In this document: positions 23,757-26,066 of the stretch, in pieces | How positions within the stretch are numbered: position 1 is the stretch's first letter | How the letters are laid out: each line of letters opens with the position of its first letter | The notes under the pieces: model-generated | The model's database searches: none | The model's input: the letters and a program-made list of their open reading frames with translations, nothing else | Told to the model about the DNA's origin: nothing | Translations under genes and position numbers: made by a program | Source: Thermanaerosceptrum fracticalcis | GTDB lineage: Bacteria; Bacillota; Peptococcia; DRI-13 | NCBI RefSeq assembly: GCF_000746025.2 | Contig: NZ_CP045798.1 | Location: forward strand, 1,784,501-1,848,500 | Length of the DNA stretch: 64,000 nucleotides | Direction of reading: 5' to 3'

Positions 23757-25124
23757 TTACTCCAACAGGCGCCAGCCAGGTGGGTAATAGTTTTTCAGAT
23801 ACTCGCCCGTTTGTTTCCCCCAACCCAAGGGGAATTCCTCCAGGCAAACCAGGGTCCACCCTTTTTCGCCATCTACCAGCAGGGTTTCTCCTTTCAAATA
23901 GCGTTCCACCTCTTCATCCCCCAAGCTAAATGAGAGGGTCCTTTGGACATCGTTTTTATATAAGCCCATAGCCAGAGCCTGAGACGGCTCGAACCGTTTA
24001 TTTTTCAGAACACCGATAAACCACCCGGGCCGTACCACCTTCAGTCCCTGCATGACAGGAAGGCCCTGGGGTATTCTATACACATACTGGCCCTGGAGCA
24101 AAAAAGGACCTGCTAAGGGGTGAGTCAAATTTTCTTCCATAAAAGCGTAAAGTGGCTCAAGATTTTTCTCTTCCCTGTAATGCACAGGTGAAAGGGGCTT
24201 ACTTAATAGTTCTGTACTATCTTTCTCCAAAAGTGCCAGAAAGTGCCCTTCCCCCTTCACCCTATGGGGCCACAGCCTCCTGGCTTCTTTTACCAATCCT
24301 GCGGCATCATTTACCCATTCGGGTCTTCCCTGAGCCCAACCATGAGTCAGGGGAAGGGGTGCTATTTTAAAATCAGGACGTTTCGCCAGGAAATCGGCTA
24401 TGACACCTTCATTTTCCTCAGGAGAGAAGGTACAGGTTGAATACAATAACCGTCCTCCGGGACTCAGCATGCTGGCGGCCAGTTCCAGGATATCCTTTTG
24501 TAAAAGGGCACAGTTTTCCACACTGTAGTTCTCCCAGCTCTTGATGGCCCTGGGGTCTTTCCTGAACATCCCTTCCCCTGAACAGGGAGCATCTACTAAA
24601 ATTTTATCAAAATAGGAAGAGAACACACGGGCTAAGCGTTCAGGTGTCTCATTTGTCACCACAGCATTGGTGGCTCCCCAGTGCTCCATATTCCACACTA
24701 AGGCCTTGACTCTTTCGGCGTTATTATCATTGGTAACGAGAAGCCCCTGACCCTGTAGTTTGGCCGCAATCTGGGTGGACTTTCCACCGGGGGCGGCACA
24801 AAGGTCTAATACTTTTTCTCCCGGTTTGATGTCCAAACAGGCTACAGGGGCCATGGCGCTGGGTTCCTGCAAATAATAAAGCCCTGCCTGGTAATAGGGA
24901 TGCTTGGCCGGTCTTTCCCCTGAAGGGTAATAATAGCCCTCTTCTACCCAGGGTATAGGTTCAAGCCTAAAGGAAACCCGCTTTTTTAATTCTGGGGCAC
25001 TTATTTTAAGGGTGTTGACACGTAAACCCTGGTAAGGTTCCCCTTGCCAGGCCTGAAGAAGCTCCCGCCACTCTTCTTTTAACAAGTCCTGCATCCGTAA
25101 CGCGAAGCTTTCCGGCAAACGCAT
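23757..25124 (-). CDS. rsmF: RsmF-like rRNA (cytosine-C5) methyltransferase
   Basis: 455-residue NOL1/NOP2/Sun family enzyme using S-adenosylmethionine to methylate a cytosine in rRNA. SAM motif LDLCAAPGGKSTQIAAKL; the two catalytic cysteines lie in DAPCSGEGMFRKD and YSTCTFSPEENE. The long C-terminal extension past residue 300 fits the YebU/RsmF branch. AAAGGAGTG precedes the ATG. It probably shares a message with rsuA. Confidence 0.92.
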   Translation of the reverse strand: MRLPESFALRMQDLLKEEWRELLQAWQGEPYQGLRVNTLKISAPELKKRVSFRLEPIPWVEEGYYYPSGERPAKHPYYQAGLYYLQEPSAMAPVACLDIKPGEKVLDLCAAPGGKSTQIAAKLQGQGLLVTNDNNAERVKALVWNMEHWGATNAVVTNETPERLARVFSSYFDKILVDAPCSGEGMFRKDPRAIKSWENYSVENCALLQKDILELAASMLSPGGRLLYSTCTFSPEENEGVIADFLAKRPDFKIAPLPLTHGWAQGRPEWVNDAAGLVKEARRLWPHRVKGEGHFLALLEKDSTELLSKPLSPVHYREEKNLEPLYAFMEENLTHPLAGPFLLQGQYVYRIPQGLPVMQGLKVVRPGWFIGVLKNKRFEPSQALAMGLYKNDVQRTLSFSLGDEEVERYLKGETLLVDGEKGWTLVCLEEFPLGWGKQTGEYLKNYYPPGWRLLE

Positions 25125-25214: not shown

Positions 25215-25249
25215 ATGAATGGGGCTATACTTTTTTTGATATTACGAAA

Positions 25250-25423
25250 AAAACGCCAGTGCTGGCGTTTTGCTCTTCCTAAGGAATTGATATAATTCCT
25301 TAGGAATCAGGGGTCTTAGGGGAAGGTATTCCCCTATGTTCAATGAGGAGGGTAACGGCGGAGCCTCATTGGGAACGCAGGGGTTCCCGTTGAAGAACAA
25401 AGCGCGCATTAGCGCCTTTGTTC
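25250..25423. other. Spacer made of six consecutive hairpins
   Basis: Between trmB and rsmF nearly every base belongs to an inverted repeat: AAAACGCCA/TGGCGTTTT (25250-25271), a perfect 13-bp TTCCTAAGGAATT/AATTCCTTAGGAA (25276-25306), TAGGGGAA/TTCCCCTA (25317-25336), CAATGAGG/CCTCATTG (25341-25371), GGGAAC/GTTCCC (25371-25388), and GAACAAAGCGC/GCGC-C-TTTGTTC (25395-25423). The last overlaps the trmB stop and the first resembles a bidirectional terminator. No known RNA family is recognised. Confidence 0.6.
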
Positions 25424-26066
25424 ATTCCGGTAAGACGATGGCTTCACAGCGGTAAATGGGCTGCCCCAAATTAACAAATCTCTCTTCATACTCGGTCATG
25501 ACGTTACCGCTAAAGCCGCTGTTATGTAAATCAAAAGTAATATTGCGCAGGCGAAACCCCATTTCGGAAAATTCATTAAGAGAAAATTCAAAGAATCCCT
25601 GGTTATCCGTTTTCAGATGAATTTCCCCGGGCCTTTTCAAAACTTTTTTATAGATTTCCAGAAAGTGGCGGTGTGTGAGGCGCCTTTTACTGTGCCTTTT
25701 CTTAGGCCAGGGATCACTGAAATTCAAGTAGATACGGTCCACCTCGCCATCTTCGAAAATAAAAGGCAGATTTTCCACATCCATATGCAAAAAACGCAAA
25801 TTAGGCAAGCACTGGGCAATGGCTTTTTTAGCAGCAATATAGAGAATATCGGGTACTTTTTCCACACCGAGATAATTAATTTCCGGATTTATTCCCGCCA
25901 AAGTCGTAATAAAAGTCCCTTTCCCCGTACCCAGTTCTACATGGAGGGGATTGGTGTTGCCAAAGACAGCATGCCAATTACCCTTATTTACTTCGGGATT
26001 AGGGATAACTAACTCCCGCATTTCCTGTAATTTGTTTTGTACGCCAGGTTTTTTCCGCAGCCGCAT
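25422..26066 (-). CDS. trmB: tRNA (guanine-N7)-methyltransferase
   Basis: Methylates G46 of tRNAs with S-adenosylmethionine. From the ATG at 26066 (GGGAGG 7 bases upstream; an upstream GTG is less likely) the product is 214 residues. Motifs: VELGTGKGTFITTLA for SAM binding, and YLNFSDPWPKKRHSKRRL, the TrmB signature. It is transcribed alone toward the multi-hairpin spacer. Confidence 0.92.
   Translation of the reverse strand: MRLRKKPGVQNKLQEMRELVIPNPEVNKGNWHAVFGNTNPLHVELGTGKGTFITTLAGINPEINYLGVEKVPDILYIAAKKAIAQCLPNLRFLHMDVENLPFIFEDGEVDRIYLNFSDPWPKKRHSKRRLTHRHFLEIYKKVLKRPGEIHLKTDNQGFFEFSLNEFSEMGFRLRNITFDLHNSGFSGNVMTEYEERFVNLGQPIYRCEAIVLPE

Follow-up and report, generated by a model that had tools for sequence, protein, structure and literature searches.

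Members of the IS200/IS605 family and their non-autonomous derivatives have hairpin ends, insert without target duplication and show a T-rich 5' flank, and group IIC introns also insert without duplication. Their insertion at structured DNA, terminators included, has been reported (PMC10190682). The BOX, RUP and SPRITE sequences of Streptococcus pneumoniae are small folded interspersed repeats that have been proposed to be non-autonomous parasites and are enriched 3' of genes, and SPRITE resembles a terminator (PMC3049150).

The locus described here lies in a window, i.e. the whole stretch of 64,000 nucleotides analysed, from Thermanaerosceptrum fracticalcis (GCF_000746025.2, contig NZ_CP045798.1, 1,784,501-1,848,500 of the forward strand), where an earlier note had pointed out a string of six hairpins at window positions 25250-25423. 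Our analysis showed the segment 25276-25423 to be one of the copies of a structured and dispersed element that is non-autonomous and was inserted with no evident target duplication. The fuller reading, to which we give a probability of about 0.8, is that it is a mobile element that targets terminators and whose fold is selected; the mobilising enzyme lies outside this claim.

The hairpin string and the boundaries of the element

The hairpin string is bracketed by trmB and rsmF, and the Pfam domains agree with both names (Table 1). Folding of 25230-25440 gave -85.4 kcal/mol for the plus strand (shuffles: mean -58.3, sd 4.3, z -6.3) and -79.6 kcal/mol for the minus strand (z -8.2), and none of 200 shuffles matched the native stability on either strand. 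The near-complete pairing claimed for 25250-25423 was thus borne out on both strands, and the hairpins are real and not a product of chance. The perfect 13-bp stem with a palindromic arm was likewise present (TTCCTAAGGAATT/AATTCCTTAGGAA at 25276-25306); judging from the other copies, most of which have well-paired, non-palindromic arms, the palindrome is incidental.

The string has two origins: its first hairpin belongs to the host, and hairpins 2-6 form one inserted element. Hence the six hairpins of the earlier note stand as hairpins but not as a single string, since the first is a host terminator-like hairpin; it was not called by a consensus terminator scan. At the trmB-rsmF site of a congener (L015) this first hairpin occurs alone, with no element, and the sequence reads ...CAACGCCAGTGCTGGCGTTGTTGTTC/ATTCCGG, while the window site reads ...AACGCCAGTGCTGGCGTTTTGCTC/TTCCTAAGG....CCTTTGTTC/ATTCCGG (slashes mark the junctions); the two share the terminal GTTC/ATTCCGG. 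Comparison of these junctions placed the element at 25276-25423, and its insertion left the trmB stop codon unchanged.

Two other sites occupied in the own genome (L006 and L007) are empty in the congener, and the congener site L009 has an empty counterpart in the own genome, within a repeated stretch. Since the left flanks of L006 and L007 do not match the empty allele even outside the insertion, the junctions there are approximate only. The empty sites indicate an insertion of about 150-165 bp, and no target site duplication was evident at the four of them, the junctions being approximate at two. No terminal inverted repeats were found, the ends matching at 3-6 of 12 positions against a shuffled mean of about 4. 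A MITE of a DDE transposon was ruled out by the lack of terminal inverted repeats and of an evident target site duplication. Full elements in the genus measured 148-168 bp, one copy of 108 bp being internally deleted; the family is about 150-190 bp long, and the element holds no protein-coding gene.

Table 1. Features of the trmB-rsmF locus (window coordinates)
Feature	Position	Strand	Evidence
Host terminator-like hairpin AAAACGCC-AGTGCT-GGCGTTTT, landing site, outside the element	25250..25271		Congener L015 has the hairpin without the element
Mobile element, 148 bp	25276..25423	+	Boundaries from copies and empty site; covariance model match
H1, left-end hairpin, 13-bp stem, loop GATAT	25276..25306	+	Sequence differs among copies, pairing kept (helices 1-2)
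Conserved linker GGGGT	25310..25315	+	Copy comparison, Rfam alignment
H2, TAGGGGAA-GGTA-TTCCCCTA	25317..25336	+	Fold; helix 3 of the alignment
Central domain, outer stem TTCAA/TTGAA	25339..25394	+	Helix 4, 78% of cells paired; conserved less than other stems
Central hairpin AATGAGG..CCTCATT, conserved loop segment AGGAGGGTAACGGCGGAG	25342..25370	+	Helix 5, 72% paired
H5, GGGAAC-GCAGGG-GTTCCC	25371..25388	+	Helix 6
H6, right-end hairpin GAACAAAG..CTTTGTTC	25395..25423	+	Helix 7, 97.5% paired
trmB, neighbour; right end of the element abuts its stop codon	25422..26081	-	PF02390
rsmF, neighbour	23757..25124	-	PF01189, PF17125

Copies and distribution

When the hairpin stretch was searched against its own genome, a single contig of 3.8 Mb, six other places were revealed; a BLAST search of one congener gave several more copies, while BLAST of a further 38 genomes from the order and class gave none. 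A covariance model built from ten copies, all of this genus, found 12 places in the own genome and 9 in the congener (copies or fragments) as well as one in G038, a genome from another family of the same class. The element is thus not single copy, its own genome carrying about 12 copies or fragments in all. The same genus-only model also scored full-length copies in distant Bacillota, with E values of 7e-24 (L216), 3e-18 (L209), 3e-17 (L161) and 5e-15 (L165). The element occurs in many Clostridia-type bacteria, and the layout recurred across genomes: a host terminator, a T-tract, a variable long H1, a GGGG linker, H2, the central domain, an H5-type hairpin, and H6 with a T-rich tail. Genome G272 contained at least 11 copies, some near-identical at unrelated sites, and G318 contained eight. 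The neighbouring genes varied among copies and many copies were truncated; plasmids and viral contigs gave no matches, the viral scans being of exact patterns only. The multiple copies and the empty sites uphold the suggestion of a non-autonomous mobile element.

Several variants and neighbouring repeats were also observed. Upstream of the core, four copies in G271 (L211-L214) carry an additional conserved segment, up to about 250 bp in length and apparently non-coding, which makes this subfamily longer; no ORF was common to these copies. Four copies from G248 (L232, L234, L235 and L237) contain, at the H2 and H5 positions, a nested palindromic repeat that is rich in GC (GGGCGGGTTTGAAACCCGCCC). 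Another family of dispersed palindromic repeats (L013, about 1379-1508; own genome 3059397, 208800 and others) lies beside a truncated element copy. The truncated copy L141 (own genome 1207878-1207936, minus strand) ends in ...GATAAGGAGGTGATGATG, and its conserved AAGGAGG may serve as the ribosome-binding site of the next gene. Three solo left-end fragments (L230, L231 and L233, in G272:C30, G272:C38 and G248:C81) stop within a base of one point (...GCTACGATCC), and each begins in or after a T-rich tract; such fragments suggest that H1 may be a separate unit.

Insertion after terminators

Flanks were compared for 25 full copies from nine genomes, using the 12 bases left of H1 and the 12 bases right of H6. 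The mean number of T residues was 7.1 on the left and 3.5 on the right, and a run of at least four T was found left of H1 in 21 of the 25 copies, usually just after a hairpin. The copies follow a host terminator, adjoining its T-tract on the 3' side, and are oriented as this tract is read. The left flank is T-rich, often TTTTTAT, with GTTC-like or AAT sequences in some copies; the T-tract of the window copy is weak (TTTTGCTC). In the relatives, H6 is itself terminator-like, with a hairpin and a T-rich tail. The right end in G272 is always C-T6-A even though the left T-tract varies in length (5-8), and the right T-tract therefore belongs to the element. In the tandem copies L181, L199 and L218 the right end of one copy is the left flank of the next.

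Of the 12 copies or fragments in the own genome, nine lie downstream of a gene in the same direction, according to simple ORF calling, the window copy being an exception. Orientation with respect to replication showed no bias there (seven against five, with the origin at about 2.7 Mb and the terminus at about 0.9 Mb as set by GC skew). Selection against harmful insertions elsewhere could contribute in part to the enrichment after terminators.

Conservation of the fold

The arms of the end hairpins were swapped among sequences. For H1, with 21 distinct sequences, an average of 8.8 of 9 pairs formed between own arms and 6.4 after swapping, and for H6 own arms formed 10.4 of 11 pairs and swapped arms 8.8 (p 5e-5 in both cases, 20,000 permutations). 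Within the genus alone the H1 values were 9.0 and 6.3 pairs (p 5e-5), and H6, which varies little there, gave p 0.016. Alignment of 46 distinct sequences revealed that 89% of cells pair and that all but one of the 47 base pairs (46) vary on both sides, so the compensatory changes looked for in relatives were found; the two central stems were weaker, with 72-78% of cells paired. The covariation score was 0.511 against 0.166 for shuffled sequences and at most 0.117 for slid partners; these figures are inflated by the kinship of the sequences and by an alignment that had been fitted to the fold, but the slid controls were still far lower. On the plus strand there were seven G-T pairs against two A-C mismatches, an excess that weakly favours folding of this strand. 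The fold, with two end hairpins and a conserved central domain, was thus shown to be maintained by compensatory changes across distant Bacillota, and the element is a bacterial repeat whose RNA-type fold is under clear selection.

These results, and the kinship to an orphan Rfam family described below, agree with the structured RNA proposed in the earlier note, while two of its other proposals did not survive the comparison of copies. The AACG/CGTT pairing, taken as a hint of a pseudoknot or switch, was rejected because it is not conserved among copies: CGTT is CTTT in most of them, and L009, the full-length copy closest to the window one, has AAGG in place of AACG. No evidence was found for recombination sites in an array, and this proposal was rejected; the hairpins differ from one another and are different parts of one unit, not mutual repeats.

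Relation to Rfam RF02937 and tRNA-linked relatives

The element core aligned end to end with the Clostridiales-2 model RF02937, over model positions 1-82 (L003, L132 and L145; E 0.0016-0.0096), and linked copies matched it at E 1e-10 to 5e-5. The scores were 18.9-29.2 bits in the genus and G038, with 26-29 bits for the end-to-end core alignment in this genus, and up to 56.5 bits in other genomes, all below the gathering score of 58.6. Among 398 genomes sampled from the phylum, 22 gave matches, in no case above that threshold, and several of the 22 had 8-11 copies. The model and the element share GGGGgUG, H2, AAGGAGGGU, CGUC and GGGAAC, but the model covers the middle only, ends inside H5 and lacks H1 and H6. 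The element is a relative of RF02937 and not a formal member. None of the papers searched names the Clostridiales-2 RNA; this orphan RNA family would gain a biological identity as the middle of a mobile element.

Two divergent family members, L145 (own genome 1456213-1456346, minus strand) and L132 (G038:C58:98758-98865), are each followed by the 3' end of a tRNA. The core of L145 is flanked by direct repeats of about 79 bp, comprising the 3' end of a tRNA-Ala and its terminator, and it opens with 13 bases of this tRNA-Ala in reverse complement. L145 and L132 may be integrations of a different kind.

Possible mobilisation and alternative explanations

We propose that the right end of the element, a hairpin with a T-rich tail, mimics a terminator. 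A trans-acting recombinase would recognise 'hairpin plus T-tract' at this end and so would accept host terminators and the ends of other copies, which would account for the tandem copies as well as for the location behind genes. The central domain would probably be read, as RNA or as a folded single strand, by the recombinase or a partner. Terminators would then be a safe landing site that the element's own end imitates, a testable idea. A broader generalisation, that widespread chromosomal RNA-like mobile elements with a 3' end mimicking a terminator colonise terminators without known reverse transcriptases or Y1 transposases, the Clostridiales-2 RNA being their central domain, is tentative.

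No autonomous version or mobilising gene was found at the loci examined. Copies with only a left or only a right end in G272 and G248 were considered as traces of an autonomous version, and those inspected were fragments beside ordinary genes. An IscB-like ORF with RRXRR and HNH domains adjoins an IS605-type Y1 TnpA/TnpB pair (L124:56-2977, own genome around 617650-620570). Any specific mobiliser is at best a doubtful assignment. The most concrete candidate, itself speculative, is a Y1 (HUH) transposase of the IS200/IS605 or RAYT kind that would act in trans, cutting and joining a folded single strand by a T-rich target; this would be a specific version of our preferred reading. The lack of an evident target duplication, the hairpins at both ends and the pairing of the right-hairpin foot with the end sequence that, in the window, agrees with the target (GAAC/GTTC) are consistent with it, as is the presence of Y1 genes in both congeners and in 12 of the 13 relatives that were tested. 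However, the Y1 loci fetched for comparison carried no element ends, which removed them as mobilisers, the unbiased orientation with respect to replication also speaks against it, and G318, with its eight copies, gave no Y1 match, although draft assemblies can lose repeats.

Another alternative is that the copies are no parasites but a non-coding RNA gene of the cell, or a regulatory tail of genes, duplicated often and kept for a host function. This would agree with the strong covariation and the conserved unpaired core, but is unlikely given the presence or absence of copies between congeners, the varied neighbours and the many truncated copies. A retroelement of the group IIC intron type, in which a reverse transcriptase inserts RNA after terminators, is very unlikely. 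Such introns are also reported to enter structured DNA or terminators (PMC10190682). The element copies do lie after terminators, with no evident duplication, but an intron would have to be longer, no group II intron was matched when seven relatives were scanned with Rfam, and no reverse transcriptase (PF00078) matched in G272, G318 or G077, draft assemblies being able to lose repeats. Ordinary terminators or chance hairpins, which the intergenic position and the terminator-like first hairpin might suggest, can be dismissed, since the shuffles and the homologous copies elsewhere rule out chance and these copies and the covariation refute ordinary terminators for 25276-25423.

Comparison with known systems

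The dispersed element found here resembles group IIC introns in sitting after terminators with no evident duplication, and differs from them in being far too short, in having no intron domains and in occurring in some hosts without a reverse transcriptase match. It shares with the IS200/IS605 family the hairpin ends, the insertion without evident duplication and the T-rich 5' flank, but it has a conserved central domain, and no transposase with matching ends was found. Like BOX, RUP and SPRITE, it is multi-copy, intergenic, folded and without coding capacity. Unlike them, it has no inverted repeats; no sequence relation to them was seen, and it is distinguished by an RNA-like core conserved over many genera, by a host range that is far wider and by inserting right at the T-tract of terminators.
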